Assembly (NCBI GenBank): GCA_022414725.1
Contig: CM039467.1
Location: 17,492,011-17,556,010 of the forward strand
DNA length: 64,000 nucleotides
Reading direction: 5' to 3'
DNA from: Microglena sp. YARC
Lineage: Eukaryota; Chlorophyta; Chlorophyceae; Chlamydomonadales; Chlamydomonadaceae
Below, in pieces: positions 1 through 62,271 of this stretch. The notes below the pieces were generated by a model. It made no database searches and was not told the origin of the DNA. It saw only the letters and a list, made by a program, of their open reading frames with translations. Position 1 is the stretch's first letter. Each line of letters begins with the position of its first letter. The translations under genes and the position numbers were made by a program.

Positions 1-1898
1 CCCCAGTGGGAACTGCAACTTCTCCCGGTCCAGTAGGCTTCAGTTTCGTGATGGCAGATCTGTAGGCCACGCAAACCTTCATATCAGGAAGTTCTTTCAT
101 CATGCACCGCTTGATACCCGCCCAGAAAGAGTCTTTGACCTTTTGTTTTCCGATGTAACGCTGAAAGTTGTCACGGGATTCTCGGCGTCGCAAAGCCAAT
201 CTCCACCACTCGTCAGAAAACTTAGCGTAATTTGACAAGTACGCGGAGATCTTATCCGTCCTCGATGTACTCAAAGCTGCTCCATTTTCACGCAGAGACT
301 CCCACATAGGAATCATGTCAGCAAAACGCAGTTCCTTCTGCCTTGTCTGCTTCTTGATACCCGACTTGTGGTAAAATGCACCACGTGTCAGCTTCCATGT
401 CTTATTTTTATCGTCTGCCAAATACGTTACCGTAGCGATGTTGCTCCGTCCTGGGTCCACACCCAGGACGACGATACCCATATCGGGCAATATCGTTTTA
501 AGTGAGCCGTCGTATTTTTCTGCGATCTTTATACCTTCTTCTTTACGAGGCTTCTTACAGGTCTTCTTCAAATCTGAGACAAGGACCTGTACTGTCTTGC
601 TGTACTGCATGCTCAAAGAGACTCCGTCAGTACAGATGCTGCAGTCGAAAACCCACCCATTCTTGACAGGTGGTTTTTCTGAAGAAGGAACCTGCGACTG
701 TTTTTCGGGCGTTCACAAGCGTGTCATACAAACCCTTTGCATGTCTGTACTCGTCAGTAGCCTTGATATCCTTAACATCATCATCGTACTGCTTCAGGAC
801 CGACTTGTATGCCTCCCATTCACCAGGACCACATGATTTTTTCTTCTTCTGTGCAGGCCTCTGGGGCAACATGAAGCTTTCGGGATTCTTTACATGTTCC
901 CACTTGGAAAGCTCAACGATGTTCTGGTCATTGGGGAACATGTGCCTGAACAGGTTCACGAGGGTCTTCAGGTCAAGGCGAACATGCACCCGTTGGACAT
1001 TGAAGATGGGCATCAATCGGATACGACGTGCATCCATATCCTCCAACCGTGTCTGTATCCAATAATTAAACCGGACCATGGTCGGAAAGTCCATGTCTTT
1101 GCCATAGTTATCATAAACTCGACTTCCATCTGGAACACTCAGCATCTCCCTAACTTCATTGACGTACTCTTGAACAGACTCTGGCCATCCCTCCATGTTT
1201 TGGACTTCTTGCTGAATAGCCTGCATCACGTCGTATCCCCGAATGATCTTCGATGTGTCCAGCGTCTTCGGGGCATTTAATTTATTTAAAGTGGTGGAAG
1301 TGAGTCTGGCCAGACGTGGTATCAAAGGAACCCATGCGTTGTTTGACACGACAGTGCTCAATGTGTGACCTGCATAGTTCAATACCTGATCGAAATAGAT
1401 CGGATAAGACTTGATGTAGTCAGCGTCGTCATTACCAATTACATCGCCGATGGAGTCCTTCACAGCTTCGTACGATATCTTGCTTTCCTCATCAGGGAAG
1501 ATTCCGTCTACCCCGATACGTAGCCAATCCTTCCAGTAGGTATCTTTCATGTTGTACAGGTCTGGAATATCCAGACCTTTCTCTAATAGACTCGTGATGT
1601 GGAAAGTCAGCACCAGACTGGACCGCCGTAACATGCGGCTCACCACATTGACGAGCTGGTCCACATGCTCCCTAAACTTACCGAATTCTTCATCGTCAAG
1701 ACTCATTGCCTTCTTCAGGGCGCATTTCACTACACACATCTTTTCCACCGTCTTGTATTCTGGAGGGGGTCTGGCGATGAGACCATTGTCTTCGCATAAA
1801 CGGACAAGATCGTCCTTGTTGGACTTCGACGAGTATGGTACTTCAGCCAATTTCAGTAGCTCCTTCAATTTCGCGACTGTCGGAGGTTTCGTCGCCAT
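1..1898 (-). CDS. Fanzor1-like (eukaryotic TnpB-type) RNA-guided nuclease, partial, one apparent frameshift
   Basis: Reads leftwards from an ATG at 1898 and runs off the window start, so about 630 codons are visible and the 3' end is missing. Residues about 8-42 resemble a SAP DNA-binding motif (VPYSSKSNKDDLVRL). A long helical middle follows. The first frame closes at 627, but the reading frame continues after a one-base shift in an A-run near 675-690. The continuation carries a CTDGVSL segment (about 620-650), then the RuvC-I-like motif GVDPGRSN (about 440-464), and near the edge TGPGEVAVPTG. In Fanzor/TnpB families that first Asp is catalytic. The remaining catalytic residues and the zinc finger would lie left of base 1. 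The first 56 bases overlap the transposase gene, which places it as cargo of that transposon. Family assignment is from motif memory. The guide RNA, expected beyond the 3' end, is not visible. Confidence 0.75.
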
Positions 1899-2604
1899 CT
1901 TTCATAATCAATACGTCACAGACCGCTTTATACACATAAGTGTTCCAAACGTGTTCAAAACAACCCATAATAATTTTATCAGTGAGGTTGCCGAATGCTA
2001 AGGAAATCATATCAGACACGTGCGTCTTTGTTTCATTCGGTATGTAGTTCAAACGACGAAAGTCTCTCTTCACCTTAGCGAAGCATAGCTCAATAGCATT
2101 GAATTCTGGACTGTAAGGAGGTGTGTAACAAATATTGACGGGGTGACTGAGGACCAATTTCTTATGGATACTGGCATTGTCCATTATTGCTACTGAATTA
2201 TTGCACAAACTCAATGATTCAATAAATGCAACGAAGTCCGTCTTCTTCACAGATCCTTTCTTCACAACGAATTCTTTCCTACCATCTGAAAAAACTGCCA
2301 TCAACAAACTGTGGTGTACCCACCCACCAGTAGTTTTAACGATAACAGGTTTTCCTACAGGGGAATACCCATAATGTGGCTTGAGACGCTCACTAAACCC
2401 ACATTCGTCAACTGATACTAAAATTTTCCCAGCATTGATTGTCTCAAAAAGGTTGCTTACAAATTCACGTCGTTTTCGATTTACACCAAAGCGTTTCCAC
2501 CTCCACAAAGTAGAACGACAGATGTTCGTAAACACAGAAGTTTTTAACACACCCAAGTCAGCGACCATTCTTAACGCCAATTTTCTAACGGCGATGTCGT
2601 ACAT
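1843..2604 (-). CDS. IS630/Tc1-mariner superfamily DDE transposase
   Basis: A 253-residue intact ORF. An N-terminal helix-turn-helix is suggested by STLWRWKRFG (residues 31-40). The DDE catalytic core is clear: SVDECGF (D66), IMDNASIH (D142) and YTPPYSPEFNAIELCFAK (E172), the usual signature of IS630/mariner transposases that cut at inverted repeats and insert at TA. The start codon lies only about 17 bases inside a terminal inverted repeat, so the element has almost no leader. The stop overlaps the start of the downstream Fanzor-like gene, so both probably share one transcript. Nothing in this ORF is broken, so it could be the active enzyme that mobilises the family A elements seen elsewhere in the window. 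Confidence 0.88.
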   Translation of the reverse strand: MYDIAVRKLALRMVADLGVLKTSVFTNICRSTLWRWKRFGVNRKRREFVSNLFETINAGKILVSVDECGFSERLKPHYGYSPVGKPVIVKTTGGWVHHSLLMAVFSDGRKEFVVKKGSVKKTDFVAFIESLSLCNNSVAIMDNASIHKKLVLSHPVNICYTPPYSPEFNAIELCFAKVKRDFRRLNYIPNETKTHVSDMISLAFGNLTDKIIMGCFEHVWNTYVYKAVCDVLIMKDGDETSDSREIEGATEIG

Positions 2605-2620
2605 TTATTTCCATCTGATA

Positions 2621-2651
2621 TATGTTTCATTTTACTGTTCCGCCGACCGTA
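2621..2651. repeat. Terminal inverted repeat, right end of Fanzor/transposase element
   Basis: Read on the minus strand the end starts at a TA and matches the family A end TACAGTCGGCGGAACAGTAA with one difference (TACGGTCGG). It lies directly upstream of the transposase start. The left end is outside the window. Confidence 0.8.
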
Positions 2652-3115: not shown

Positions 3116-3494
3116 GTCACCATTTAGAAATAGAACGCCATTGGCGGCAGAAATATACCAGTTGAACAGGTCTACTGGTTCGCCTTTAATAAGTATGTGT
3201 TTTGCGTGTTAGTGTTTGCATTTTTATGAAGAAGAAAGATTTTTCACACGCACATCGGAACGCAATCGCTTTTAGCCACTGTTAAATTGGATTCCCCGCT
3301 CTTCCATGCATGATGCGGTCTCTTCCATGCACGACGCGTCTCCTCAGTTTGTGCAATTCCACTGTCCCGCTCCGGTGCTTTTTCTTTTTGTTTAAGAATC
3401 AGTAAATTTATCTGTAAAATTGTGAGTACTTTTGAAAAATGCAACAACACCTCTTGCGGTTGTGCATTGAGTTGACAATAAAAAAATTCAACAA

Positions 3495-3669
3495 CTCTTT
3501 TGTTCGTCTCAAAAAGTTTGCTTACAAATTCACGTCGTTTTCGATTTACACCAAAGCGTTTCCATCTCCACAGAGTAGAACGACTGATGTTCGTAAACAC
3601 AGAAGTTTTTAACATACCCAAGTCAGCGACCATTCTTAACGCCAATTTTCTAACGGCGATGTCGTACAT
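3495..3669 (-). pseudogene. Truncated 5' copy of the DDE transposase
   Basis: The first about 55 codons match the start of the transposase at 1843-2604 almost exactly (only a few substitutions such as NISRSTLW for NICRSTLW). After the residues FET the sequence diverges and no catalytic residue is present. Upstream, the terminal repeat is cut after GATATATGTTTCAT at about 3696, so this copy lost both its body and its end. Confidence 0.85.
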
Positions 3670-3727
3670 TTATTTCCATCTGATATATGTTTCATCCTGC
3701 AAATCGTTCTTGGTCAAGGACATGCTA

Positions 3728-5403: not shown

Positions 5404-7605
5404 ATGAATATACACATGTTCATCGAAATGCAATCTCACACTCGATCATCGTTTCCATTCCTAACGTCGGTTCCCTGTGACATCCTTGATCGTATTGCCC
5501 TATTCTCTTCCAACCCCCAGATTGTATTAGTGTGCAAAACTCTGCGCAAAAGATTTTCAGGATTGCCCCTTGCCGGACTGATCAAACCACCACAGCTCGT
5601 TGGAGAGATGATGGCGAAAGGGGGGCGCGCCGACCTTCTAGCAGTATGCTTGGTGTCCAATCCTCTTGTACAGGTTCAGGGGACCCTACAATTTAGGGCG
5701 AACCAAAATGAAAACAATCTTCTCTATGTGGGTGCCAAGGCCGGTCACGCAGATGTCTGTAAGCTGCTGATGGATCCAGCGGTGGCTGGACTTGAGTTCA
5801 GGGCCAAGGCGAACTCTAGCGACAGCAGGGCCTTATGGGCGGCCGCCAAGGAAGGTCACGCCGATGTCTGCAAGCTGCTGATGGATCCAGTGGAGGCTGG
5901 ACTCGAGTTCAGGGCCATGGCGAACTCTAGCGACAGCAGGGCCTTATGGACGGCGGCCAAGGAAGGTCAAGCCGATGTCTGCAAGCTGCTTATGGATCCA
6001 GTGGCGGCTGGACTCGAGTTTAGGGCCCAGGCGAACTCTAGCGACAGCTGGGCATTGTTGGTGGGTGCCAATGCAGGTCACGCAGATGTCTGCAAGCTGC
6101 TGATGGATCCAGAGGTGGCTGGAATTGAGTTCAGGGCCCTGGCGAACTCTAGAGACAGCAGGGCCTTGTTTGTGTGTGCCAATGAAGGTCAAGTAGATGT
6201 CTGCAAATTGCTGATGGATCCAGCGGTGGCTGGAATTGAGTTCAGGGCCCTGGCGAACTCTAGAGACAGCAGGGCCTTGTGGGCGGCTGCCAATGAAGGT
6301 CACGCCGATGTCTGCAAGCTGCTCATGGATCCAGTGGTGGCTGGACTTGAGTTCAGGGCCCTGGCGAACTCTAGCGACAGCAGAGCATTGTGGGCGGCTG
6401 CCAAAGAAGGCCACGCAGATGTCTGCAAGCTGCTCATGGATCCAGAGGTGGCTGGACTTGAGTACATGGCCCTGGCAAACTCCGACGACAGCTGGGCATT
6501 GTGGGCGGCTGCCAATGAAGGTCACGCAGATGTCTGCAAGCTGCTGATGGATCCAGCGGTGGCTGGAGTTGAGTTCAGGGCCCGGGCAAACTCCGACGAC
6601 AGCAGGGCCTTGGGGACGGCTGCCAATGAAGGTCACGCAGATGTCTGCAAGCTGCTCATGGATCCAGAGGTGGCTGGACTTGAGTTCAGGGCCAGGGCGA
6701 ACTCTAGCGACAGCAGGGCATTGTGGGTGTCTGCCAAGGCAGGTCACGCAGATGTCTGCAAGATGTTGATGGATCCAGAGGTGGCTGGACTTGATTTCAG
6801 GGCCCGGGCTAACTCAATCGACAGCAGGGCCTTGTGGAGTGCTGCGGAGGTAGGTCACGCAGATGTCTGCAAGCTTCTGATGGATCCAGCGGTGGCTGGA
6901 GTTGAGTTCAGGGCCCGGGCAAACTCCGACGACAGCTGGGCATTGTGGGCGGCTGCCAATGCAGGTCACGCAGATGTCTGCAAGCTGCTGATGGATCCAG
7001 CGGTGGCTGGAGTTGAGTTCAGGGCCCGGGCAAACTCCGACGACAGCAGGGCCTTGGGGGCGGCTGCCAAAGAAGGCCACGCAGATGTCTGCAAGCTACT
7101 GATGGATCCAGCTGTGGCTGGACTTGAGTACAGGGCACAGGCGAACTCTAGCGGCAGCTGGGCATTGGTGGTGTCTGCAAAGGAAGGTCACGCAGATGTC
7201 TGCAAGCTGCTGATGGATCCAGATGTAGCTGGACTCAAGTACAGGGCCCGGGCGAACTCTAGCGACAGCTGGACCTTGTTTGTGGGTGCCAATGCAGGTC
7301 ACGCAGATGTCTGCAAGCTGCTCATGGATCCAGCGGTGGCTGGACTTGAGTTCAGGGCCCTGGCGAACTCTGTCAACAGCAGGGCCTTGTGGGCAGCTGC
7401 CAAGGAAGGTCACGCAGATGTCTGCAAGCTGCTGATGGATCCAGAGGTGGCTGGACTTGAGTTCAGGGCCCTGGCGAACTCTGTCAAAAGCAGAGCATTG
7501 CGGGAGGCTGCGAAGGACGGTCACGCAGATGTCTGCAAGCTGCTGATGGATCCAGCAGTGGCTGGACTTGAGTTCAGGGCCCTGGCGAACTCTAACGACA
7601 GCTAG
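5404..7605 (+). CDS. F-box and ankyrin-repeat protein, with an apparent nonsense stop
   Basis: 733 residues. An F-box-like motif lies at about residues 20-50 (VPCDILDRIALFSSNPQIVL), then about 17 near-identical 37-residue ankyrin repeats built on HADVCKLLMDP and ending in an ALWAAAKEG-type helix. At the DNA level the repeat is 111 bases. F-box plus ankyrin proteins are common in giant viruses and poxviruses, where they recruit host SCF ubiquitin ligases, so a host-target role is inferred. The reading frame is closed by TAG at 7603, where every other repeat has an Arg or Trp codon. The same frame then stays open to 7830 with one more repeat and a distinct 40-residue tail, so the ancestral protein was about 808 residues. 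The TAG could be a point mutation, an error or a readthrough site. Confidence 0.85.
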   Translation: MNIHMFIEMQSHTRSSFPFLTSVPCDILDRIALFSSNPQIVLVCKTLRKRFSGLPLAGLIKPPQLVGEMMAKGGRADLLAVCLVSNPLVQVQGTLQFRANQNENNLLYVGAKAGHADVCKLLMDPAVAGLEFRAKANSSDSRALWAAAKEGHADVCKLLMDPVEAGLEFRAMANSSDSRALWTAAKEGQADVCKLLMDPVAAGLEFRAQANSSDSWALLVGANAGHADVCKLLMDPEVAGIEFRALANSRDSRALFVCANEGQVDVCKLLMDPAVAGIEFRALANSRDSRALWAAANEGHADVCKLLMDPVVAGLEFRALANSSDSRALWAAAKEGHADVCKLLMDPEVAGLEYMALANSDDSWALWAAANEGHADVCKLLMDPAVAGVEFRARANSDDSRALGTAANEGHADVCKLLMDPEVAGLEFRARANSSDSRALWVSAKAGHADVCKMLMDPEVAGLDFRARANSIDSRALWSAAEVGHADVCKLLMDPAVAGVEFRARANSDDSWALWAAANAGHADVCKLLMDPAVAGVEFRARANSDDSRALGAAAKEGHADVCKLLMDPAVAGLEYRAQANSSGSWALVVSAKEGHADVCKLLMDPDVAGLKYRARANSSDSWTLFVGANAGHADVCKLLMDPAVAGLEFRALANSVNSRALWAAAKEGHADVCKLLMDPEVAGLEFRALANSVKSRALREAAKDGHADVCKLLMDPAVAGLEFRALANSNDS

Positions 7606-9426: not shown

Positions 9427-10732
9427 TCATCTGCTTTGGCACGGTGGTCCTCCGCCCGTCGAGTGTAACAAAGAATCCATCAGAACCTTGCAGACATCCA
9501 GATAGCCTCCCTTAGCGCCGGCCCTCAGTGCCTGACTGTTGTCGTCATCTGCCTTGGCTCGGTGCTCCTCGCCTGCGAACTCAGGATCCATCAGAATCTT
9601 GCAGACATCCACATGACCTCCCTTAGCGCCGGCCCTCAGTGCCTGACTGTTGTCGTCATCTGCCTTGGCTCGGTGCTCCTCGCCCGCGAACAAAGGATCC
9701 ATCAGAACCTTGCAGACATCCACATGACCTCCCTTAGCGCCGGCCCTCAGTGCCTGACTGTTGTCGTCATCTGCCTTGGCTCGGTGCTCCTCGCCCGCGA
9801 ACAAAGGATCCATCAGAACCTTGCAGACATCCACATGACCTCCCTTAGCGCCGGCACTCAGTGCCTGGCTATTATTGTCATCTGCTTTGGCTCGGTGCTC
9901 CTCGCCCGCGAACAAAGGATTCATCAGAATCTTGCAGACATCGAGATAGCCTCCACTAGCGGCGAACCTCAGTGCCTGGCTGTTAATGTCATCTGCCTTG
10001 GCCCGGTGCTCCTCGCCCGCGAACTCAGGATTCATCAGAATCTTGCAGACATCGAGATGGCCTCCACTAGCGGCGGAACTCAGTGCATGGCAGTTAATGT
10101 CATCTGCCTTGGCTCGGTGCTCCTCGCCCGCTAACAAAGGATCCATCAGAAACCTTGCAGATATCGATATAGCCTCGCCGAGCGGCGGCACTTAGTGCAT
10201 CACTGTTGTAGTCATCTGCCTTGGCCCGGTGCTCCTCGCCAGCGAACTCAGGATTCATCAGAATCTTGCAGACATCGAGATGGCCTCCACTAGCGGCGGC
10301 ACTTAGTGCCTTGCTGTATAATGAATCAGCTTTGGCTCGGTGCTCCTCGCCTGCGAACTCAGGATCCATCAGAACCTTGCAGACATCGAGATGGCCTCTC
10401 GCAGAGGCGGCACTTAGTGCATCACTGTTGTTCTCATCTGCCTTGGCTCGGTGCTCCTCGCCCGCGAACTCAGGATTCATCAAAACATTGCAGACATCGA
10501 GATGGCCTCCACTAGCGGCGATCATCAGTGCTAGACTGTCAATGGCATTTGCCTTGGCCCGGTGCTCCTCGCCCGCGAACTCAGGATTCATCAGAATCTT
10601 GCAGACATCCAGATAGCCTCCCCGAGCGGCGAACCTCAGTGCATCACTGTTGTTTTCATCTGCCTTGGCCCGGTGCTTCTCGCCCGCGAACTCAGGAGAT
10701 GTGCCTCCGGGTTCGCTTGCTTGAGAAGACAC
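9427..10732 (-). CDS. Ankyrin-repeat protein, frameshifted
   Basis: Eleven or so 37-residue ankyrin repeats of a second subtype: EFAGEEHRAKAD, a variable stretch, then ALRFAASGGYLDVCKILMNP. The frame is broken near 10160, where CATCAGAAACC has one A more than the same site in all other repeats. Correcting it joins the ORFs 10100-10732 and 9427-10191. There is no F-box; the 5' end near 10700 starts abruptly inside a repeat and abuts the dispersed hairpin repeat at 10740-10870, so the N-terminus appears lost. Repeats are nearly identical to each other, indicating recent expansion or gene conversion. Confidence 0.8.
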
Positions 10733-11587: not shown

Positions 11588-13451
11588 TCATGCTGTTGGC
11601 AGCCGCCCCCACAAGGCCCTGTACTCGGGGCCAGCCGCATCTGGATCCATCAGCAGCTTGCAGACATCTGCATGACCTGCATTGGCAGCCTCACGCAATG
11701 CCAAGCTGTTGAGAGAGTTCGCGCGGGCCCTGAACTCAATTCCAGCCACCTCTGGATCCATGAGCAGCTTGCAGACATCTGCGTGACCTGCCTTGGCAGC
11801 CTCACGCAAGGCCCTGCTATCGCTAGAGTTCGCCAGGGCCCTGAAATCAAGTCCAGCCACCGCTTGATCCATCAGCATCTTGCAGACATCTGCGTGACCT
11901 GCCTCCGCAGCCTCACACAAGGCCCAGCTGTTGACAGAGTTCGCGCGGGCCCTGAACTCAATTCCAGCCACCGCTGGATCCATGAGCAGCTTGCAGACAT
12001 CTGCGTGACCTGCCTTTGCAGCCTCACGCAAGGCCCTGCTGTCGCTAGAGTTCGCGCGGGCCCTGAACTCAAGTCCAGCCACCGCTGGATCCATCAGCAG
12101 CTTGCAGACATCTGAGTGACCATCCTTGGCAGCCCACCTCAAGGCCATGCTGTCGCTGTTGTTCGCCCGGGCCCTGAACTCAAGTCCATCCACCTCTGGA
12201 TCCATCAGCAGCTTGCAGACATCTGCGTGGCCGTCATTCGCAGCCACCCCCAAAGCCCTGCTGTAGCTAGAGTTCGCCTGGGCCCTGTACTGAAGTCCAG
12301 CCACCTCTGGATCCATCAGCAGCTTGCAGACATCTGCGTGTCCTTCCTTCGCAGCCGCCCACAAGGCCATGCTGTCGCTAGAGTTCGCCCGGGCCCTGAA
12401 CTCAAGTCCAGCCACTGCTGGATCCATCAGCAGCTTGCAGACATCTGCGTTACCTTCCTTCGCAGCGGCCCACAATGCCCAGCTGTCGCTGGTGTTCGCC
12501 AGGCCCCTGAACTCAAGTCCAGCCACCTCTGGATCCATGAGCAGCTTGCAGACATCTGCGTGACCTTCCTTCGCAGCCGCACACAATGCCCAGCTGTCGC
12601 TAGAGTTCGCCATGGCCCTGAACTCAATTCCAGCCACCTCTGGATCCATGAGCAGCTTGCAGACATCTGTGTGACCTGCCTTGGCAGCCGCCCACAAGGC
12701 ACTGCTGTCTCTAGAGTTCGCCCTGGCCCTGAACTCAATTCCAGCCACCAATGGATCCATGAGCAGCTTGCAGACATCTGCGTGACCTTCCCTCGCAGCG
12801 GCCCACAATGCCCAGCTGTCTCTGGTGTTCGCCCTGGCCCTGAACTCAATTCCAGCCACCTCTGGATCCATGAGCATCTTGCAGACATCTGTGTGACCTG
12901 CCTTGGCAGCCGCCCACAAGGCACTGCTGTCGCTAGAGTTCGCCAGGGCCCTATACTCAAGTCCAACCACCTGTGGAACCATCAGCAGCTTGCAGACATC
13001 TGAGTGGCCTTCATTGGCAGCCTCCACCAAGGCCAAGCTGTAGCTAGAGTTCGCCCTGGCCCTGAACTCAAGTCCAGCTGCCTCTGGATCCATAAGCAGC
13101 TTGCAGACATCGGCGTGACCGGCCTTGGCAGCCACATAGAGAAGCTTGTTTTCATTTTGGTTCGCCCTCAATTGTAGGGCCCCATTAAGCTGTACAAGAG
13201 GATTGGACACCAAGCATACTGCTAGAAGGTCGGCGCGCCCCCCTTTCGCCATCATCTCTCCAACTCGCTGCGGTGGTTGGATCAATCCGGTAAGGGGCCA
13301 TCCCGAAAATTTTTTGTGCAGAGTTTTTACACACTAATACAATCTTGGGGTTGGAAGAGAATATGGCAATACGATCGAGAATGTCATGGGAAGCGTTAGG
13401 AATGATCGCGTGTGCGAATGCATGTTCTATAAACATGTGTGTACAATGCAT
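11588..13451 (-). CDS. F-box and ankyrin-repeat protein, frameshifted near its start
   Basis: Closely related to the gene at 5404-7830 in the opposite orientation. The N-terminus at 13451 has the F-box-like DILDRIAIFSSNPKIVLVCK. The frame then breaks in an A5 run at about 13325; removing one A restores the same order of residues as in the other gene up to the first repeat. About 14 ankyrin repeats of 37 residues follow (HADVCKLLMDPEVAG). It ends with AAGPEYRALWG shortly before the stop at 11588, shorter than the tail of its paralogue. Likely role by family is recruitment of host targets to SCF ubiquitin ligase, which is inference. Confidence 0.8.
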
Positions 13452-14048: not shown

Positions 14049-14594
14049 CTACGTTGCAAGAGGGAATGACGCCAAGAGTTTAGATTTCATATTTGATGTG
14101 ATGTAGTGTGGGTGAGAGGGAGCAGGAATGCATGGCATACACGACTTATCAACACACCTTCCCAAGCGGCACGTTGCAGCAAACTTGTCACAATTCTCCT
14201 CAACGAGGTTGTACTCTACTACCGAGCCCTGCTCCACCAGATACTGTGCGAGCTTGAGTGAGCAGTCGAGCGGCAACGCATCCTTGTAAACGAGCACAGC
14301 TCCTGCATCTGCGCCTTTAATAAATAAGCCTAACGGACGTCTTGCCAAACCATCAGGCATGATGTCGAGGACATGTGCATGACCGTGCTCACTTGTGCCT
14401 GCAAAAATGCCGTGATGCCAGTACCCCTTAGAGTCAGACCAAACGGCTATGTGGTCTCCAGGACTGGCTTGAGTGCACAGCATATACGGCTCGTACTCCA
14501 TGGTGGTTGCATAGTGACTGGCAGCCAGTGCCTGCTTGGTCAAGCCAATGCCTCGCAAGAACATCTGAACGTCCAGTTCAAGCTTGTCGCCCAT
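14049..14594 (-). CDS. LRAT-like (NlpC/P60 superfamily) protein
   Basis: 181 residues. The segment SPGDHIAVWSDSKGYWHHG (residues 44-62, H60/H61) and the later VEENCDKFA (C135) match the order and spacing of the His and the NC motif of the LRAT family, whose members act as thiol acyltransferases or phospholipases on membrane lipids. Related proteins occur in several viruses and many eukaryotes. No C-terminal membrane anchor is obvious. The start codon at 14592-14594 overlaps the outer base of a family B transposon end, so the original N-terminus or promoter may have been replaced. Lipid substrate cannot be inferred. Confidence 0.6.
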   Translation of the reverse strand: MGDKLELDVQMFLRGIGLTKQALAASHYATTMEYEPYMLCTQASPGDHIAVWSDSKGYWHHGIFAGTSEHGHAHVLDIMPDGLARRPLGLFIKGADAGAVLVYKDALPLDCSLKLAQYLVEQGSVVEYNLVEENCDKFAATCRLGRCVDKSCMPCIPAPSHPHYITSNMKSKLLASFPLAT

Positions 14595-22236: not shown

Positions 22237-23853
22237 TTACACCAACTTGTATCCTTTGAAAACCCCTCGCAAATTTTCGTTTCCGCGGCTTTTGACGCGG
22301 CTTTGCTCTAGACACCTGACGCTTAGGTGACGTTCCAGGTCCGCCTTGATCGTGCTGAGTTTCCCGTTGAAATATTCGCATGTCTTGAAGCGTTCTTTGG
22401 CCTCCTTCAGCAGAAATGCGCTGTCCGGGCTGGCCGCGACGTGCTCTTCGACGAACATAGCCACTGCGTCGTCGTTCGCGTTCAAGTACATCGCACCGGT
22501 CTTCTTTAACGAATCGGGCATATCGAACTTGTATGCAAACGCGTGTAGAAGGGTGCGTAGGAACTCCATGCACATCGCTCCGTCGTCTGCCTTGAATGCC
22601 TCTACAAGCCCTGCGTCTCGTGGGAAGAGGAATTTGGCGGCGTCCGCCTCATCCTCGTCCACAAACCGACTGATGTAGTCGCCCAATGCTATTTCCATGA
22701 CTTCGAATAAGTTTGTCCTCCCTTTACACTTGACGGAATACTAAAATGAAACCGTTTTCTGGAGTGTACGGCACACCTTACGGTGTAACCAAATGGTGTA
22801 GCAACCCACGGGGCAGTGGAACACCAATACGATTTTGAATCAACAAATTGCAGGATGTTAACGAGAATATCGTGGTTCTTTTTTAGATCACGGCTCTCCA
22901 TCCTGCAGACTCCGTATCGTTCTTTTGTCGGTACTTTCGAGAGTGTCCATTGAAGGACCAGCCGCACTTAAGCGATCGACTCTTCCCCGGTACCGTGGCC
23001 CAAAAGAACACGGGGTCTTTGTTGATGTGCAATGCGTCATGAAAGGAGGTTTCTTTGCTGGACGGGCCATTTTGTAGGACCATCCACTCGTACACTATAA
23101 TGTCTGTCGACGCCTTATACCGTTTATTGGGATGTTTCATTTTACTGTTCCGCCGACTGTAGAGGCGGACGCGTTGGCTCTGGCGTGTATGTGAAAGAGC
23201 TCTTGTCCGCTGTCTCCGTACAGCTGTCTAGCAAATGTGTGGATGAGTTGGGATATATCTGGGTGCATCGTGTCCCAGTATTTCCGCACGCGGTCTGCTG
23301 ATTCCGCGCACACTGCGCCATTGTAATCGAATCCCACGGACATGGAGACCATGTCCTCCGGATGCCCTTGACGGAAGACGGCGTTTTTAAGGTCCCACAC
23401 GCCGTTGTTGAACCCTAAGAGGTTTGGGTCGGCGTCTAGTTTCTTCATGAAGTCCGGGTCGTAAAAGTACTCTAGCATCTCTTTCAGGACGTTGTTCTTG
23501 AAGGTCGCGTCCTGGAGGCGCTCGGTGATGTTCGCTAGCCGTTCGGCGGTTTCGTTCTTTGTTCTCATACTTAGCAGGTTGCTCTGCATATCGTAAGCTC
23601 TCTCCTTGTGCAGAGCGGTCATGAAGTGATCTCGAACAACGGTGGACAGCTCGTGCTTGACTTGGAACTTGGCGACCGTCTTCCATCGCCCGTCGAATAC
23701 GTACCATAATAGCTTTCCGTTCGTGCTCCTCGCGGCGGCAGCGATGCGGTTTCCAAGTATTCGTTTCGCGATGCGCGCGATCTCGTTATGGCTCCCGTTG
23801 CACGCGCGGACGTCGTCCTCCTCCTCCTCAATGTGTAGGAACATTAATATCAA
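22237..23853 (-). pseudogene. Broken second copy of the primase-helicase (SF3/D5 part), split by a transposon
   Basis: Two segments (23853-23162 and 22724-22237) align with residues of the SF3/D5 protein at 34502-36130. The first has the D5-type region LGFNNGVWDLKNAVF and reaches LFHIHARANASAS, the approach to the ATP-binding loop. There a family A element (22725-23161) interrupts it. On the far side GRTNLFEVMEIALGDY resumes the alignment directly. After that about 125 residues, including the Walker B region, are missing and the alignment resumes at FVDEDEADAAKF through the C-terminus. The N-terminal primase domain is absent upstream of 23853. It cannot encode an active helicase. One motif GTGTAAACAACT lies upstream at 23901-23915. 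Confidence 0.85.
22725..23161 (-). mobile_element. Family A MITE inserted in helicase pseudogene
   Basis: 437 bases bounded by TA. The right end, inverted, reads TACAGTCGGCGGAACAGTAA, and the left end TACACTTGACGGAATACTAA; these are imperfect inverted repeats. It is nearly identical to the inverted copy at 30552-30987. The ends match those of the Fanzor/transposase element at 2651, which is the likely source of transposase. It contains an 85-codon ORF at 22883-23140 (minus) that is also intact in the other copy. Confidence 0.9.
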
Positions 23854-32895: not shown

Positions 32896-33562
32896 ACCGA
32901 GTGTAAACAACGTTTTCCCAAAAACCGAGTGTAAACAACTTTTTCCCAAAAACCGAGTGTAAACAACTTTTTCACAAAAACCGAGTGTAAACAACTTTTT
33001 CACAAAAACCGAGTGTAAACAACTTTTTCCCCAAAACCGAGTGTAAACAACTTTTTCCCCAAAACCGAGTGTAAACAACTTTTTCACAAAACCGAGTGTA
33101 AACAACTTTTTCCCAAAAACCGAGTGTAAACAACTTTTTCCCAAAAACCGAGTGTAAACAACTTTTTCCCAAAAACCGAGTGTAAACAACTTTTTCCCAA
33201 AAAACGAGTGTAAACAACTTTTTCACAAAAACCGAGTGTAAACAACTTTTTCACAAAAACCGAGTGTAAACAACTTTTTCCCCAAAACCGAGTGTAAACA
33301 ACTTTTTCCCAAAAACCGAGTGTAAACAACTTTTTCCCAAAAACCGAGTGTAAACAACTTTTTCCCAAAAACCGAGTGTAAACAACTTTTTCACAAAAAC
33401 CGAGTGTAAACAACTTTTTCACAAAAACCGAGTGTAAACAACTTTTTCCCCAAAACCGAGTGTATACAACTTTTTCCCCAAAACCGAGTGTAAACAACTT
33501 TTTCCCAAAAACCGAGTGTAAACAACTTTTTCCCAAAAACCGAGTGTAAACAACTTTTTCAG
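32896..33562 (+). repeat. 28-bp iteron array upstream of the primase-helicase gene
   Basis: About 24 head-to-tail units of 27-28 bases with the constant core CCGAGTGTAAACAACTTTTT and a short variable end (CCCAAAAA, CACAAAAA or CCCCAAAA). The last unit ends about 60 bases before the ATG at 33624. Single copies of the core lie upstream of the other replication genes (23901-23915, 29974-29990) and at 39480. The position fits a replication origin with initiator-binding iterons or a repeated promoter element, both inferred. Confidence 0.85.
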
Positions 33563-33623: not shown

Positions 33624-36130
33624 ATGAGTGTGCTTAATGCGACGTCCGCTTGGTTGCGCTCGCATCCCCTGCATGTCGGCAACAGCGTTTTGATCCCCCT
33701 ACGCCCTGGCAAGAAGCAGCCGCTTGTTTCCCACAAATTGCCGGGTCAGTGGGACTGGTCCACTTTCGACGCGTTCGTGAAGGAAACCCCCCTTCATTCC
33801 GACTGGGGCATTTTGCTCGACCGGATTGTCGTGATCGATTGTGATTATGAGGCTTCTGTTGCTCTCCTCGAGAGCTTTGCTGATGCCGATCCAGTTGTCA
33901 AGGTGGCGCTTGCGAGCTGCGCCATCCAGAAGACGATGAAGGGGCTTCACTACATGTTCTCTAGGCCCTCTTGGGCAGATGATCTAGGCTACTGGGACGG
34001 TGCCCGCCAGGTGAAGGGTATGAACATCGACGTCAAGACTCTCTGCAAGAACTCCACTCGGGGTTTATTGAGCGTAAGTCCCTCCGCGAACAAGAGTTGG
34101 CTTCGCGCGCCCTGGGATTTGTGCGCTCCCCATGGAGGAGGAGCGCATGAGGATGTCCATGGCCTGTTGCCCGACATCCCCGAGTCTTTGCTCTCCAAGG
34201 TGTGCTCTCGAAGACCTGCACGTCGGCGTGCCAAGAGCAGTCCTGATATCGGCAGTTGTTGTCGTCTTCTAGATTCATCATCAGCTGCCCCCTCCCCTCC
34301 TGACGCCACCATCCTGACACCCTCCCCCATCCACATGTTGGTGAACATGTTGTCCCCGATCAGAGCCGGTGAGTACGCGTCGTGGATGCGTGTGGGTTGG
34401 TGCCTGCACAACATCGATGCGGATCGCAGCATGCTCCCCCTGTGGATCGCGTTCAGCAAGCAGTGCATGGATCGGTTTGTTCCAGGCGAGTGTGATCGTC
34501 TTTGGACTCGATGCGCGATGAAGGCTACACGGAGGCTTCGCTTCACATGTGGGCGAAGATGGACAGTCCTTCCGAGTACGCCATCTTTATGCATCAGACG
34601 GTCGAGAGCTGCAACGGGACGCACGCTGAGATCGCTGACGTTGCCTTTCGCCTCCTCAGGGACCGTTATGTTTTTTGCAACACACGGCTGTGGTTTTATT
34701 TTGACGGCTCCCTGTGGAAACAAGACAAGGAAGCTTTGCGCATCCGTCATGAGTTGTCCTCCACGATCCGCACAGCGTTCTTGCAGACGGCGCACCGCCT
34801 GCGTGCCGCCGCCTCCATCTCGGACATGGACAGCATCAGCATCAGCAGCGTCTCTTCGCATCATAATCGTGACACATCTTCCCCCCCCAACCGTATGCTT
34901 AAGATTGCCACGCTTTTGCAGGACGCGTCCTTCAAGGATCGCGTCATGAAAGAGATGGGCGAACTGTTTCACGACCCCGGTTTTCTCGACCGCCTAGACA
35001 GCAACCCTGCGCTGATCGCGTTCACCAACGGCGTGTGGGATTTGCGGAAGTCTCGGTTTCGCCAGACCGATCCCGACGACCGTCTGTCCATCTCCACTGG
35101 GTTTGCCTACTCTCCCCACATCGATGATGCTCGCGCTGCCCAAATCGATCGCTATTGGAGCTGCATGCACCCCGACCCTCTTCGCCGCCAGTACATCATC
35201 CGCACGATAGCTCGTCAGTTGTTCGGGGATCACGGGTCTGAGCTGTTCCACATCCACGCCGGTCAAAGCGCTAGCGCCTCCAACGGCAAGAGCCGATTCT
35301 TCGAGGTCTTGGAGCACTGTCTTGGCGGCTATGTTCTGAAGTTCGGTGTTGAGCTTCTGACTCAGAAGCAGCGCATCGACCCTGGAAAACCCATGCCCGA
35401 GTTCGCCACTTGGCGCGGCGTGCGCATCTTGTACTGCTCCGAGCCCAATCCCACCGAAACCCTTAATTCGGGTGTGATGAAGGACTTGACTGGCGGCAAG
35501 GCCATCGTGTATCGTTTGCTGTTCTCCAACGATGTCCACCGCTTCCGCCCACAGTTCAAGATGCACATCATGTGTAACTTCCTTCCGCAGGTGGATGGCT
35601 CTGACCCTGGCGTCCAACGTCGGGTCCGTGTTCTCTCGTACGCCAGCAAGTTCGTTAGCGCTGGCGACAACGTGGATCCGTCCCAGCACCGCTTCCTCAA
35701 GGACCCCGGTCTCGCCCGTGCCTTCGGGAATGACGATGCCCTCAAGATGGAGTTCGTGCGTTGCTTGTTTCGCGCCTACGATCACGATTTCTGCTTCGAC
35801 ATGCCCCATGTGGTCGCCGCTGACAGCCGCGCGTATCTCGCCGACAACGACTCCGTCCACCTTTTCGTGAACGCGCACGTAGTCAAGATCCCTGTCTTGG
35901 ATCCGAGTTTCGATCCGGGCTCCTCCTTCTTCACATTGAAAGAAGCCACCGCCTTGTTTCGGTCATGCGATTTTTACGATCACAAGCCCCGGACCTTCAA
36001 GGTCACCCTTCAGAACCTGCTGGGTGTCGTGTGCCACGAGCAGAAGAAGATCAATGGCGTCAACTGCACCAACGTGTTCATGGGGTTCCGACTCAGGTGG
36101 AACGATGACGAGCAACAACAAGACCAATAA
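33624..36130 (+). CDS. Archaeo-eukaryotic primase-polymerase fused to SF3/D5 helicase, one apparent frameshift
   Basis: The first frame (from 33624) has the prim-pol signature: VLIPLRPGKKQP (residues 22-33), VVIDCD with catalytic Asp 72 and 74, GLHYMF (His about 109) and DVKTLC. It runs in register to about 34500, where one missing base shifts to the frame that starts at 34502 and stays open for 542 codons. That part carries LWFYFDGSLWK, the D5-type FTNGVWDLRKS, Walker A GQSASASNGKS (about 35261-35293), a Walker B-like RILYCSEPN, LTGGKAIVYR and the sensor-like MCNFLPQV. Together about 835 residues. Such proteins prime and unwind DNA in polinton-like viruses, virophages and many giant viruses. 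The gene is GC-rich, lies between an iteron array and a 141-bp tandem array, and is the best preserved replication gene here. Confidence 0.82.
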
Positions 36131-39719: not shown

Positions 39720-41605
39720 TCAAATTTGTAAGGCGGATGTAAAGGGAATCAAGCCATTCTCATCATTGCTGTTGGCTGCGAACCATTTTTGGTATCGGAG
39801 GCGTTTAAAGCCAACCCTTCTCTCATCAGGGATGTCTCTAACTGCATTGGTGTCACTTGGGTACTTAAACCTCCATGACTCAAAAACTTCAGACATAATA
39901 CCTTCGACATCGACAGCCTCCAAAATGTTGATGTTTTTACTGGATCCTAGCTTGTGGAGAGCACAACGCAAGTCATGAACCCAGCCAGTGTTGGAGTCAA
40001 AAGATTCCTCAAGAGCCATTCTAATGAGATCCTCAGGTTCTTTATGTATGGTCTTGTTCCAGAAGCGCAAAGCTTGTTTAAGCCAAGCAAAACACAACGG
40101 GGTTCTACCCAGCTCTTCCATGATAATATTAGATGTAGTAGATTGGCAAAACACCCAACATTTGTTTAAGTATACCTCTATGCCATTTCTCACAAGCATG
40201 GTCATTTGAGATAAGTGTGTTGTTCAGAATAGAAGGAGCCCACACCTCACAGCCAAAATTCAGGATAGGTTGTACAAGAGAATCAAACAGGTGGGTGAGA
40301 ATATCAATATTGTATATCTCCATAGTATGGCATCGCCTACGGAGCATGTGGTGTGCCTTTTGGGCCTTAGTGAGCATCCTAGAAAAAGCAGCTTTTGCAC
40401 GATTGCTTGAGTCACCATCCACAAAGAGGGATCCCAAGTAGATAAAAGATAACTTTGTAGAAAGTTGTGCTCCATCATAGACAAATTTGTAATCAGGATC
40501 CATGCGGGCCTCATCACAGAATTGCTTGTTGAAAACGACAATCTCAGTTTTCTTTATATTCACAGCCATCTTAGTAGCCTCACAGAAATCTCTCAGACAG
40601 TCAAGCATCGCTTGCATATCTGCCGGGGATTCTGCCATTATAGCTAGGTCATCAGCATAAAGTAACAGTTGCAGAATCTTTCCCCTAAGCTCAGCCCCTA
40701 CATTTGGGAGCTTGGATTGGAGGAACGATTCAATTCTATCAATGAACAGACCGAATAGGAGTGGGGATAGGGGTCTCCTTGTTTAACTCCTACAAGGGAT
40801 GGAAAGGAGGATCCAATGTCCCATGTAGGCGAACTTGGAAAACAACATGAATATACATGGACTTCAGAATACTGAGATAGGGGTCCTTGACTCCTAGCCT
40901 TGCTAAGCAATCCCATAGCAAGTCTCTGTTGACCCAATCATAAGCCTTCTTGAAATCAACAAAAGCCACGAAGAGTGGTTTTTTCTTTTCTCTATATTTA
41001 TCTACAATATGGTTAAGAATGAATGATGTATCTGCAGTACCCCTACCACTTCTAAATCCATATTGGCCAGCGGCTCTGAGGTTGAATTCTTCTGACCAAT
41101 CATCTAGTCTACGTAGCATGCAAAGGGAGAAGATCTTTCCTATGGAGTTGCTCACCGCAAGACCTCGATAGTTGTCCTTGTCATACACACTGCCTTTGGA
41201 TTTGGGTACGGGTACCAAGGCAGCTGCAGCCCATTGGCTAGGGTAAGAAGTCTTCCAGATGAGATTAAACATGTTAGTCATAGCTTGTACAAATCGGGAG
41301 TTGGCTTCATGGGAAGCAAATCTGTACCATTCTGCAGGGATACCATCTACCCCGGGGGAGGAGTTTTTCCGTAGGGATTGGAGAACAGAAAACACCTCCT
41401 TGGTGGTAAAGTCTTGACATAACCATGTTGGTGCGGCCTCTATCTGAGGTCCATCAGCTTGAGGGACAAAGTCCCTAGCATCCAGACTTGGATCAATACC
41501 TACTTGCACATCAAAGAGGTCTGCAAAATAATCAGTCCAATAATGAATTGTGATGTCTGCCGTAGTGGCCTTGTTCCCTAGTGTACCCGTTCCCCTTGTT
41601 TGCAC
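39720..41605 (-). mobile_element. Non-LTR (LINE) retrotransposon, reverse transcriptase and 3' region, frameshifted
   Basis: Read leftwards: RKNSSPGVDGIPAEWYRF, VPVPKSKGSVYDKDNYRGLA, GQYGFRSGRGTADTS and AFVDFKKAYDWVNRDLLW are the successive fingers and palm motifs of LINE reverse transcriptases; VGVKQGDP follows and the catalytic YADD is at about 40648-40659, then VNIKKTEIVVF. A frame break near 40790-40800 separates the first 271-residue ORF from the YADD part, and another near 40140 precedes the final 161-residue ORF. No endonuclease domain is evident, so the 5' end is truncated near 41620-41750, as is usual for LINE insertions. Confidence 0.85.
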
Positions 41606-45496: not shown

Positions 45497-48400
45497 CTAG
45501 TCCAAACCAAGCATACCATTCATACTCCAAAAAACCTCTGCGGGGAGAGGCTTAGTGAAAGTATCAGCCAACTGCAAGGAGGTATGCACCTTAGTAACAC
45601 CGATGCGCTGGCTTAGAACCAAATCCTTGATGTAGTGATGCATTATATCTATGTGTTTAGCCTTGCTTTCAAGCTTGTAGTCCTCTGTCCAGGACAGAGC
45701 TACCGTGGCATCACATTTGATAGTAATCAAGTGAACAGGCAATCCCAGGTCTACCCTAAGATGCTTGAGCCACTGAACTTCCCTCGCACAACCAGCCAAA
45801 GCTTGATACTCAGCTTCCCCAGTACTAACTGCAGGGGTGATTTGTCGCTTGGATACCCAATTGAAAATTCCACCAGAAGCTAGAAAAGCAAGACCAGTTT
45901 GAGATCTCCTGTCCTCCGGATCCTCACCAAAAGATGCATCACTGTAAGCAAGGAGCTCAATTTTTGGGTCATGAGTGTAGGCAATACCAATATAAGTATG
46001 CTTGCGAAGGTACACCAGAACCCTCAGAGCTGCATTCCAGTGAGCCTGAGTAGGTGCTGCTGTGAATCTAGAAAGTTGACTAACAGCAAAAGCAATATCA
46101 GGTCTTGTGCACGTGGACAAGTAGATGAGGCTACCAACCAGAGATGCGTACAAAGTGTTGTTAGGTAGAACAGGACTGCCAATGGCATGAACTGTAACTG
46201 ACTTAGACACCATGGGCACCTCAGACGTAGCCTTCAACTTCTCTTCCCCTGCATTAAGCTTGAACCGCTCAACCATCCCATTAATAGCATTATGCTGACT
46301 GAGTACAATCTTCACACACCGCCCTCATCATCAAGGGTAACATTACAGTCCAAAGAGAGGAACTGTTCAGGTACTCCCATTTCTGTAATAACCCACCCGT
46401 TATTACGCAAGATGGTAATAAGTGCATCATAGAGCACGAGCTCATCAACAGCAATCCAAAAGTCGTCGACATATGTCAGGACCCAGGACCACAGGCCATC
46501 AGCATCCAGGCGCACAAAAAGTGCTGGATCAGAGAGCGTCGGTCGGAAACCTGCAAGGCGAAGAACCTGCAGGACATTGTCATGCCAAGCTCTAGGGGCC
46601 TGCTTCAATCCATACAAGCTCTTCACAATGCGACAAACCAGGGGTTTTCCATTAGGCCCAACCTTGATGAAGCCGTCAGGCTGCCTCAAGTACAATTTGA
46701 GGTTGGGATCTATCACTCCATGAAGGAATGCAGTCTTCACATCAATTTGCCTGGAGAACATCTTACGATGAACAACACCTGCAAGTAACACCCTCAAAGT
46801 CGCTTTAGAGGTGACCGGAGCAAAAGTCTGGTCGTACTCAATACCAGGACGCTGCATGTAACCTCTAGCCACAAAACGCGCTTTGTAGCGCTCCACTCTT
46901 CCATCCTTACCCAACTTTTTAGTAAATAACCATCTGGCAGACATAAGTCTGTACTCATCCCCAGGATGAGGCTCCAGAATCCAAGTACCATGACCCTCGA
47001 GGGAAGCGATTTCATCTCTCATTGCTAGCTGCCACTCTTCCCTCTCAGGGTTATCGAGCGCTATAGCTTGAGCATAAGAAAGCTCACACTGGATGGAGAT
47101 AAAAGCAGCACCAACTGGTTCTGGTACCTCTTCTGCAGAACCATCAACAGACGGGGATGGAGGGGATCGCTCCACCTCATCAGAAGTATCACCAGCAATA
47201 GAAGGAGAAGGGGAAGGAACTAAAACATCAGGAACCGTAACATCTGGCACTGAAGGGTATCGCTTCAATACCGATTCATCTAATAAACCAAACTCAGGAA
47301 CCTCCCCACGCATCCTCCCACTTGATCTAACTCCAAGAGCAGAAGGAAGAGGGGGTGGACGAGGCTCCCGAGGTGTAACCTTTGAGAGCAGTGATTGTAT
47401 CACTCTCCCAGGAGGTAGCTCTGGACGTCGAACGTCCGGCGCATCTCCCACATCACCTAACCCAATCCAACCTGGGGCTGGCATGCTCATAGCAGACGCT
47501 AGAGTAGAATCACTGGCTGTATCACTAGAGTCAACATTACCTAAGTCACTAGGCAGTTGCTCATCCCGAGCAATAGGAAGCTGCAGAACCTCAGGCTCGA
47601 ACAATGGGTTACCACTAACAAGGAAAGGAGTCTCTACAATTTTATCTAGGCCGCTAGCTCCACCTTCTCCCCTTAAATCACCAACAGCCAGGACAGAGGG
47701 TGGGAGGATAGAGAATGGAAGGCAGCGAGTCGGAATAATTTCCGCAGTCTTAGTGTCAGGCACAAAAACAGGGGAGACATTGGGGGCAGCAGCCTGCCGA
47801 GAACGTAGGTTCATATGGAAAACTGCTCCCACATCTGTTTCCATCTGCCCTGAGTCCTGTAGAAGATATTCTAATGCTGCCAGTTCAGTACGCCCCTCAG
47901 TGACGGCCAAGGGAAAACCAGAAGCAAAAGAACTCCCATCATACACCAATTGCCCATCGACGGGCACTGGGCCAGTGCCCTCAAAAAAGGTCACGTCACG
48001 AGCCTCAATCACTTTGTGCAACTTTGGAATCCAGACCTGGTAGGCCTTCGACACCACACTATACCCCACCAGTCTACCCTGGATACTCTTAGGATCTAAT
48101 TTCCCCCGCTTCTTCCCATCTAGTAGGGTTACATAGGCTATACACCCAAAGACGCGGAGGTGGGACACCTCGGGGACGCGCTGATAGAAAAGCTCATACG
48201 GAGTCTTTCCATCTTTCGTCTTTGTGGGTAACCGATTTCGAAGGTACGAAGCAGTCAAGAAGGCATAGGGCCAGAAACCCTTGCTCATCCCTGATTCTAT
48301 CAGCATCGTACGAGCCATAGCAGCAACTACCCCATTGAACCTCTCAGCAACCCCGTTTTGCTGTGGGCAATACACGCTACTATGTTCGTACGTCGCATTT

Positions 48401-49418
48401 ACCTCATGAAGCCAGTCAACAAACCATTTGACCAAAAACTCTTTTGCTTGGTCCCCCCTAAGCGTTCGAAATGCTACCCCTAAAAGTTCCGCACTCCACT
48501 TCTTAATCGTAAATTGGATCTGCCATGCAGCATCCGATTTCAGTCTAATCGGAATAACCGCACTCCACCCAGAAAAAATCACCAACTATGACAAGAAGAT
48601 AAAGTTCCCCTCTCAACCCAGCACTGAACGGCCCATGATATCAATATGTATCAATTCGAGCGGCGCGTGAGTATTCCTAGTACGATTTGGGTATGGTTTG
48701 CGTATGGCCTTACCCAAACAACATGCATCACAAGGGTCCTGTGAGAACTTTTGAAGTGCAGCCCTGGTAAAGTTGGGTCCGCCAGTAACAGTGCCGGAGT
48801 GCGACAACATGTGCATAGCAGGTTGACCAGGATGGCCAAATCTGCGGTGCCATAGTTTCGCACTATCACGACAAGTAACTGTAGGATCGCCTTGACCAGG
48901 AGTAACAGTTTCAGCAGAAAACGCCGTAGGAGAGGGTCGAACTCGCGACGCCCGCGGATGAGAATCAGGGATAGGGTGTGAACATATTCGAAGTGGTAAA
49001 GACCAGTCGTTGTGGCTGGAACAGTCCAAAGAGTTCTAGACCCTCTGGTGGCAATACAACGATCTGCATCAAAACTAATGATACAACCCTGGGACCTAGC
49101 CGTAGCATTTACACTGAGAAGGTTAACAGGACAATTAGGTATGTAGAGCACATTGTCTATGGTAATGGGGGCCTCAAGCCACTCATTACATAGTTCAATG
49201 GTTCCAATACCAACTGCCTGCTGAACAACACCATCTCCAAATCTAACAGAGGGGCAATTTGCCTGATATCTGATGGATTTAAAGAGGGTGACGTCCCCAG
49301 TCAAACTCCGACTAGCCCCACTGTCTAAGTACCAGGTAGCTTCGACACAATCATCAGCCTGAGCAGGCGCCCAGGCTGTTTCAACACTAATGAGAACGGG
49401 TAAGGGGGGGGTTGCATC
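45497..49418 (-). CDS. Copia pol (protease, integrase, reverse transcriptase, RNase H), with frame breaks
   Basis: The first part is in the gag frame after the gag TGA and carries the protease motif WYLDSGASRS (about 49315-49345). A shift near 49000 leads to the GAG-pre-integrase zinc segment (LWHRRFGHPGQPA, CDACCLGK). Two closely spaced breaks near 48600 enter the integrase core (LRGDQAKEF, YCPQQNGVAERFNG), then reverse transcriptase (ARWLFTKKLGKDG, VDVKTAFLHG-like DVKTAFLHG, YVDDFWIAV). A last shift at about 46315 leads to RNase H (YLSTCTRPDIAFAVSQLSR, AYSDASFGEDPEDRRSQTG, KHIDIMHHYIKD). All catalytic motifs are present, so the breaks are either recent mutations or sequence errors. Confidence 0.9.
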
Positions 49419-50987: not shown

Positions 50988-51051
50988 GATGCCGAGCTTC
51001 TCAACGTCCGCAGTGGCGTACGCTTTAGCGCAACTGATGAGACCTATAACC

Positions 51052-51248
51052 TGACAGAGTTCAGGGGACGTGAGGAGACCAGGAACGAAGTGTTTAGACA
51101 ACTGGACAGTTAAAAGAGCCGAGGGATGCCTCTTGAGAGAGGAGTCCTGACGGCAAACCCCAAAACCCTTAGGTTACGGGAAAGGACAGACGCGATAGGT
51201 TGCGTAGCCAATAGGCCAGGTAGAACCAATGAACAGCTAAAGCTAACA
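51052..51248 (-). repeat. 5' LTR of the copia element
   Basis: 197 bases, ends TG...CA on the minus strand. The adjacent internal sequence on the minus strand is GGTTATAGGTCTCATCAG, where a tRNA primer-binding site would be expected; no tRNA was matched. Confidence 0.95.
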
Positions 51249-61259: not shown

Positions 61260-62040
61260 GGGGAGCAGGGCTACGAGCTTACGAACTCTTACAAGTGTGG
61301 GACACTTTTTTATCGTGCAAAGCGTCGCAAATTGAGCGAGCCCCAGTGCGACGCGGTATCCCCCGAACCCCATGAGGCGCGAAGCGCGGAGCCCGGGGGG
61401 GTTGGGGTTTAGCACTAGTTTAGACGGACCCATGCCTCGCCATGCAGCGACAGAATAGCGACGCTTCGCACACAAATATAACAGTGTTGTGGAATGTTTT
61501 GAGCATTTATAAAATAAGAATAAACAGTGGTGTGGGATGTTTTGAACACTGATCTCATATAAAATAAATAAAAAAGTGGTGTGAGATTGATCCTGTGTGG
61601 GATTATGAAAGAAAAAGAAAAAAAGGTGGTGTGACATTATAAAATACAAATAAAACAGTTCCTCATGGCCCAGGTGTTGCCACGTAGTAAGCTGCTAGTC
61701 CATATATGTGGGTACAAGTACCCACGATTCAGTAATTGAACATCTCGAGTTGCCTTTTCGATACACCAACTGGTCCAGCACTCCATTACACTGCTGCTCA
61801 TGAGACAATCACTTTTGTGTGCGCAACGCATCACCATTACGTCACTGCATAGCAACGCAAGAGTTCAGTACAACAACTACTTGTTTAATCACTTATGCAC
61901 ATAAACAGGTGTTGTACACATTTTAACACCGGTTGAACACCCTAAAAGCTGTTTAACAACCTGAACAGGATGCAGGCTGTCATAGGGTAGTAGCTGTGGC
62001 GTAAAGACAAGGTGAGAGCTGATATCACGATGATCATGAA
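61260..62040. other. Intergenic, no gene supported
   Basis: Includes four diverged copies of a 45-50-base block (GTGGTGTG(G/A)GAT...TATAAAATA) at 61485-61660. Confidence 0.45.
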
Positions 62041-62047
62041 TTCATGA

Positions 62048-62143
62048 TAGTGGTGGTGGTGGTGGTGGTGGTGGTGGTGGTGGTGGTGGTGGTGGTGGTG
62101 ACGATGGTGGTGATGGTGGTGGTGGTGGTGGTGGTGATAATGG

Positions 62144-62181
<38 letters not shown>

Positions 62182-62187
62182 ATGATT

Positions 62188-62220
<33 letters not shown>

Positions 62221-62233
62221 TTGATGTTGATGT

Positions 62234-62271
<38 letters not shown>

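Follow-up and report, generated by a model that had tools for sequence, protein, structure and literature searches.

A decayed IS630/Tc1-mariner element with a Fanzor1 passenger gene whose aligned relatives mostly lack the full zinc finger

Mariner elements that carry a Fanzor1 were already described in 2013 (PMC3627910). The subject here is a candidate for another such pairing, at the left edge of a window of 64,000 nucleotides. The best explanation, at a probability of about 0.88, is a decayed, TA-targeting IS630/Tc1-mariner element, probably in a eukaryotic chromosome. Its passenger is a Fanzor1 of a clade with RuvC residues and without the zinc ligands of the TNB region.

Layout and decay of the window element

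The element lies on the minus strand and is read from position 2651 leftwards. It starts with a TA target duplication (2650-2651) and its own copy of the terminal inverted repeat (TIR) at 2609-2649, the outer end being 2649. The open reading frame (ORF) of an IS630/Tc1-mariner DDE transposase (253 aa) follows at 2604-1843, and a second gene starts at 1898. The original prediction placed a terminal repeat right before the transposase and an overlap between the two genes. Both were found, with 56 nt (1843-1898) common to the pair.

Four copies of the TIR core are present in the window: one, with one mismatch, by the transposase and three exact ones on the plus strand at 2680-2825. The latter are remnants of related elements adjoining the element's own end, and the element's own repeat differs from these neighbouring copies at 2 of 39 positions. 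A 5′ fragment of a second transposase copy is located at 3416-3695 of the minus strand, with tblastn matches at 3416-3669 in two frames. The portion at 3500-3695 is 96% identical to 2435-2630, and the fragment retains, in another frame, part of a region absent from the first transposase. Chance is excluded for the element because the four TIR cores compare with none in 100 shuffles, 58 transposase homologues were found, and the Fanzor homologues numbered 11 in one search and 55 in another (61 distinct proteins together). The search that gave 55 scored the 7,966 candidates sharing most words. An Rfam search of the window at the gathering threshold gave no matches.

A check of the transposase against the Pfam profile DDE_3 returned a match at E 1.2e-23. 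Against the IS630 model NF033545 of NCBIfam, the copy, which is shortened, scored 85.6 bits, under the curated cut-off of 100. The catalytic triad consists of D66, D142 and E172. A pairwise PDB search with the transposase produced chance-level matches only. The DDE_3 domain, the TA target and the TIR are common to the window element and IS630/Tc1-mariner transposases. The window copy differs in that 29 residues separate the second D from the E and that 75-77 residues of the DNA-binding region are missing. These residues, which separate the first HTH from the catalytic domain, are present in 12 of the 13 aligned relatives (12 of the 58 homologues and the related locus L002); the thirteenth, truncated at the N-terminus, has 65. 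The transposase had been called intact. It does have a DDE ORF, which, as judged from the alignment, is open yet internally shortened. A fragment in a public assembly, P0062, is 99% identical to the C part of the window transposase and has the same C-terminal tail.

The second gene is divided between two frames. The N-terminal half is a 423-aa ORF at 627-1898 of the minus strand, with a HeH/LEM-like start and regions matching WED and REC of Fanzor1. Near 670-690, in a displaced stretch of the minus strand that is either a break in the copy or an assembly error, the Fanzor homology moves into another frame, which opens at about 712 and has no stop up to the edge of the window. This C-terminal half (2-712, minus strand) contains the TDG motif of the WED domain (~623-631) and the RuvC-I motif GVDPGRSN (~440-463), and leaves the window before RuvC-II and RuvC-III. 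One gene with a SAP-like N-terminus and GVDPGRSN had been described; both features are present, but the motif sits outside the ORF bearing the SAP-like start. The HeH/LEM match at that start is weak (E 0.0054, 16.9 bits against a Pfam cut-off of 28.9). HeH is matched at E<=0.1 by 10 of the 51 aligned Fanzor relatives, the best at 1.8e-6. At a guess from the domain name, this start may bind DNA or the nuclear envelope.

The window Fanzor groups with P0023 (SH-aLRT 100 in a quick tree), an uninterrupted protein of 792 aa that is 95% identical to the N half (432 alignment columns) and 98% to the C half (~205 aa). For P0022 (785 aa), also uninterrupted, the values over the same lengths are 66% and 76%. 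The window gene corresponds to approximately residues 1-632 of P0023, and the ~160 residues with RuvC-II and RuvC-III fall outside the window. The description of RuvC-II, RuvC-III, the TNB region and the other terminus, all beyond the window edge, is taken from P0023 and its kin.

The frame displacement may be an assembly error or, with less likelihood, programmed, in which case the Fanzor gene would be whole. The break is confined to one short stretch; outside it, both halves stay open and share 95-98% identity with P0023, which is unbroken. Against this, the adjoining transposase is defective too, and P0023 and P0022 run uninterrupted across the break, which argues against a programmed frameshift. 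A whole gene is considered the less likely case, although far from negligible; these odds are separate from the family assignment. The window copy belongs to an established type, a mariner with Fanzor1, and is damaged. Neither a functional transposase nor a functional Fanzor is likely to be made from it, except if the displaced frame reflects an assembly error. The original prediction of an RNA-guided mobile unit, complete apart from its left end, was supported as to a Fanzor1 on IS630/mariner but not as to completeness, since both genes are damaged and RuvC-II, RuvC-III and the expected guide-RNA end lie beyond the window.

Related elements and the proposed mechanism

Among GTDB contigs, 35 stretches were matched by pattern and two were relatives, L001 and L002, in bins labelled bacterial. 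The contigs (L001, 1-3175; L002, 1-3823) were binned as Bacteroidetes and Candidatus Kerfeldbacteria. By inference, they are likely to be misbinned DNA in public bacterial MAGs.

L001 (3,175 bp) contains a whole element at 252-2917, bounded by perfect inverted arms of 31 nt that include the TA, with TA at both ends. It carries the Fanzor only, without a transposase ORF. The Fanzor frame is interrupted near 750-840. The interrupting stretch contains an imperfect 35-nt inverted repeat (77%) and may be a small insertion or an intron. The L001 repeat matches the window repeat at 22 of 28 positions. When random 28-mers of the window were compared with it, 1 of 20,000 had at least 20 identities, and this one might itself be a window TIR. 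L002 (3,823 bp) has TA + CAGTC at 179-185, a transposase ORF at 236-1237 and a Fanzor ORF that begins at 1284 and is open until the contig stops. Its repeat matches the window repeat at 19 of 28 positions.

A TIR of the TA + CAGTC type is present at one end in the window, at both ends in L001 and at the left end in L002. The order of transposase and Fanzor is common to L002 and the window. The gene overlap could be compared in this one relative only and is not kept there, the two genes being 46 nt apart; a word search for 'overlap' in the main text of PMC3627910 gave 0 hits. The Tc1/mariner Fanzor1 elements PGv-1, PUl-1 and HMa-1, described by Bao and Jurka in 2013 (PMC3627910), are composed of a mariner transposase and Fanzor1 with TIRs and a TA duplication, as here. 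The clade studied here differs from them by the absence of the C4 zinc finger and by a HeH/LEM-like start.

The Fanzor might instead have been domesticated or repurposed by the host, as a regulator or for defence, with the transposon no longer needed and the mariner neighbours incidental. The presence of a Fanzor without a transposase ORF in L001 and the TIR remnants adjoining the window copy would agree with this. It is nevertheless quite improbable, as perfect TIRs with TA still bound L001, L002 and the window share the gene order behind the same type of end, and the window copy is decaying.

For a mariner with a Fanzor1 passenger, the following mechanism is proposed. In intact relatives, the transposase would excise the element and reinsert it at TA. 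As in characterised Fanzor1s, the element end past the Fanzor stop codon would be transcribed into an RNA to which the Fanzor binds. The RuvC domain of the Fanzor would then cut flank-matching DNA beside a short motif, as in the solved Fanzor1s. By the logic of TnpB, cutting of the empty site would favour retention or spread of the element. Such a benefit to the transposon is also expected by analogy with characterised Fanzor1s.

The 115 nt past the L001 Fanzor stop, with TIR and TA included, fold with a z of -2.33 (4 of 200 shuffles as good). A longer fold that includes the coding end has a z of -2.27 (2 of 200). The fold of this end uses the TIR in part, and Fanzor1 guide RNAs have been reported to use the TIR in their fold (PMC10711439). 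The fold score is modest, and the L001 end, the one locus with a complete end past the Fanzor stop, is compatible with a guide RNA and is not evidence for one.

Zinc-finger loss and the family assignment

Alignment A3 contains 51 of the 61 distinct Fanzor homologues (n=51 rows). Ten proteins (P0001, P0002, P0003, P0004, P0006, P0007, P0008, P0010, P0027 and P0036), mostly truncated or partly covering, were left out and do not enter the cysteine counts. The D/E/RD residues are retained in all 51 rows. The Ealt column at RuvC-II is E in 51/51 relatives, and the R and D columns of RuvC-III are likewise kept in 51/51. Ealt stands six residues ahead of the first zinc-finger cysteine position in P0061, a protein that keeps the cysteines. 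The DPG of RuvC-I, like the TDG of the WED domain a Fanzor1 feature in PMC10711439, is present in the window (GVDPGRSN, 440-463) and in 50 of the 51 relatives, the exception being P0046, and the TDG columns are invariant in the 51. The published motifs were applied with loosened spacings. Matches to the E..[TS][TS] and TDG tests may fall at any position of a protein; the column counts are the stronger measure.

The full C4 zinc finger, whose place is from RuvC-II to RuvC-III, is missing in 50 of the 51 rows and complete only in P0061, the one protein recovered by the loosened form of the published motifs. At the four cysteine positions, as fixed by P0061, one row has four cysteines, 3 have two, 21 have one and 26 have none. 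The relatives were retrieved with zinc-less queries, and the 50/51 describes this clade, not Fanzor1 at large. The second CxxC pair is retained in P0056. Of the 50 rows other than P0061, 24 retain the third cysteine alone, a pattern that requires 8 changes on a quick tree. The trees carry a long-branch warning for P0059 and P0061 and are rooted by choice on P0061, the most distant scored match, used as outgroup. The original prediction asked for RuvC-II/III residues or a zinc finger in the missing part. The former are in 51/51 relatives and the full set of the latter is absent from 50/51, the C-terminus of the window copy itself being beyond the edge. The loss in the relatives was unforeseen.

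The simplest account would be an early loss of zinc binding, after which a leftover cysteine drifted while the nuclease residues stayed fixed; this order depends on the P0061 rooting. In the predicted model of the relative P0012, the zinc-finger stretch still forms two hairpins (738-754 and 816-831; pLDDT of blocks 87-96), whereas the prediction is poor for a loop at 789-808. The clade, which keeps the RuvC residues without the zinc ligands, is read here as a zinc-ligand-less variant of Fanzor1 inside mariner ends of the TA + CAGTC type.

It could be argued that the window copy is a standard Fanzor1 on a mariner, with a normal C4 past the edge, and that the loss is confined to other relatives. 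The C-terminus of the copy does lie beyond the edge, and P0061 shows a C4 in the wider family. However, all four cysteines are missing from P0023, which is nearly identical to the copy (95-98%), and also from P0022, P0016, P0025 and P0028, which fall into the same region of the tree. A standard zinc finger is thus very improbable, marginally more so than domestication.

The C4 zinc finger has been described as part of a strictly conserved motif (PMC3627910). 'Many' Fanzors are said to have a zinc finger in PMC10711439, and the regular expression given there requires it. By the 2013 motif, the clade would not be classed as Fanzor; by the 2023 fingerprint (DPG + Ealt), the TDG and the predicted fold, it would be. 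The family profile reaches Fanzor1 by sequence, with a TDG match in GtFz1 and SpuFz1. In both structure comparisons of the P0012 model, Fanzor1 chains rank 1-7. The model aligns with Fanzor1 structures over most of residues 61-860 at an identity of 11-15%. Foldseek itself superposes the model on the Fanzor1 chains loosely (TM by query 0.39-0.50, rmsd 9-14). The predicted fold of the clade is similar over most of the chain to that of the solved SpuFz1, PpFz1 and GtFz1 (PMC10432273, PMC11423790). The TDG is common to the clade, GtFz1 and SpuFz1, and the D, E, D triad to the clade and SpuFz1. SpuFz1 has a CCCC zinc finger (PMC10432273), whereas the clade is without the full set; the third catalytic place is N in GtFz1 (PMC11423790) and D in the clade. 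A further difference from the solved proteins is the addition of ~60 N-terminal residues with the HeH/LEM-like domain. The predicted assignment, a Fanzor1 on IS630/mariner, is supported by the profile match in sequence, the fold prediction, the motifs and a related locus that shares the gene order.

Pairwise PDB searches with the two window Fanzor pieces gave no Fanzor at E<=1, and these, like the search with P0061, returned chance-level matches only; Fanzor1 was reached solely with the family profile. The C-terminal piece of P0061, searched for comparison with the cysteines of solved Fanzors, gave nothing relevant. That the window protein is an RNase H-fold member of a different family, its DPG motif having arisen by chance, can practically be dismissed: the C piece has weak DNA-glycosylase matches in NCBIfam (best 4.8e-4, 20.3 bits), and the two Fanzor pieces and the seven relatives first scanned have no Pfam match above the cut-off, but Fanzor1 structures top both comparisons and the profile finds Fanzor1 by sequence. 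A glycosylase identity of the C piece was rejected on bit score (20.3 against a cut-off of 80) and fold. P0005, P0009, P0015 and P0019 carry the precomputed Pfam label PF26935.1, which the Pfam scan performed here reported for no scanned relative.

There is about an even chance that a large Fanzor1 clade lost its zinc-ribbon ligands early and stayed under selection as an active RNA-guided nuclease. Its ribbon would be held without metal. TA-targeting mariners would spread it, and an HeH/LEM domain might anchor it to chromatin or the nuclear envelope. The zinc finger between two catalytic motifs has served to define and find the TnpB/Fanzor family (PMC3627910; regular expression in PMC10711439). 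If the clade reading is true, searches demanding CxxC...CxxC would overlook the clade, and CxxC-pair motif searches would undercount eukaryotic RNA-guided nucleases. The 50 protein clusters, of 51 aligned, with catalytic residues and without the cysteine set raise the question of what the zinc is for. The natural intermediates with four, two, one and zero cysteines are material with which its role can be tested. Among the titles and abstract openings listed in a literature search, none reports a zinc-finger-less Fanzor1 clade; earlier notice is possible.

Genomic setting

Fanzors are known in giant viruses (PMC3627910). Pattern scans of the viral contigs in IMG/VR picked up 1 stretch with the N half, 55 with the profile and 10 with the transposase; none of these was confirmed as a relative, and the TIR pattern had no exact match. 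A phage collection yielded no relative either. A giant-virus home for the element is not supported by these collections.

The window also bears reverse transcriptases of the copia and LINE types, repeats of the ankyrin and LRR kinds, and pieces of primase/D5-type genes, a setting that fits a eukaryotic chromosome with inserted viral-type DNA. At 33624-36130 and 23137-23853, primase (PriCT_2 2.6e-13; Prim-Pol 2.7e-4, just under the cut-off) and D5_N (6.6e-17; 2.8e-18) are found in separate or overlapping ORFs. These pieces resemble the replication genes that large DNA viruses or virus-like elements carry, and are apparently inserted and decaying. The stretches at 45497-51101 and 39720-41605 hold pieces of a copia-type retrotransposon, with RVT_2 at 2.7e-38, and a reverse transcriptase of the LINE type, with RVT_1 at 1.9e-10.

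Ankyrin-type repeat ORFs are present at 5404-7605, 9427-10732 and 11588-13285, the Pfam run covering the first. Those at 5404-7605 and 11588-13285 are in opposite orientation, both with GEMMAKGGRADLLAVCLVSNPLVQ near the start. An LRAT-domain protein (7e-7) is encoded at 14049-14594. The stretches at 51966-53336, 33084-33536 and 61942-62676 hold near-identical LRR repeats, a tandem repeat that reads KVVYTRFWGKSCLHSVFG, and long runs of triplets with poly-His/Met/Val frames.
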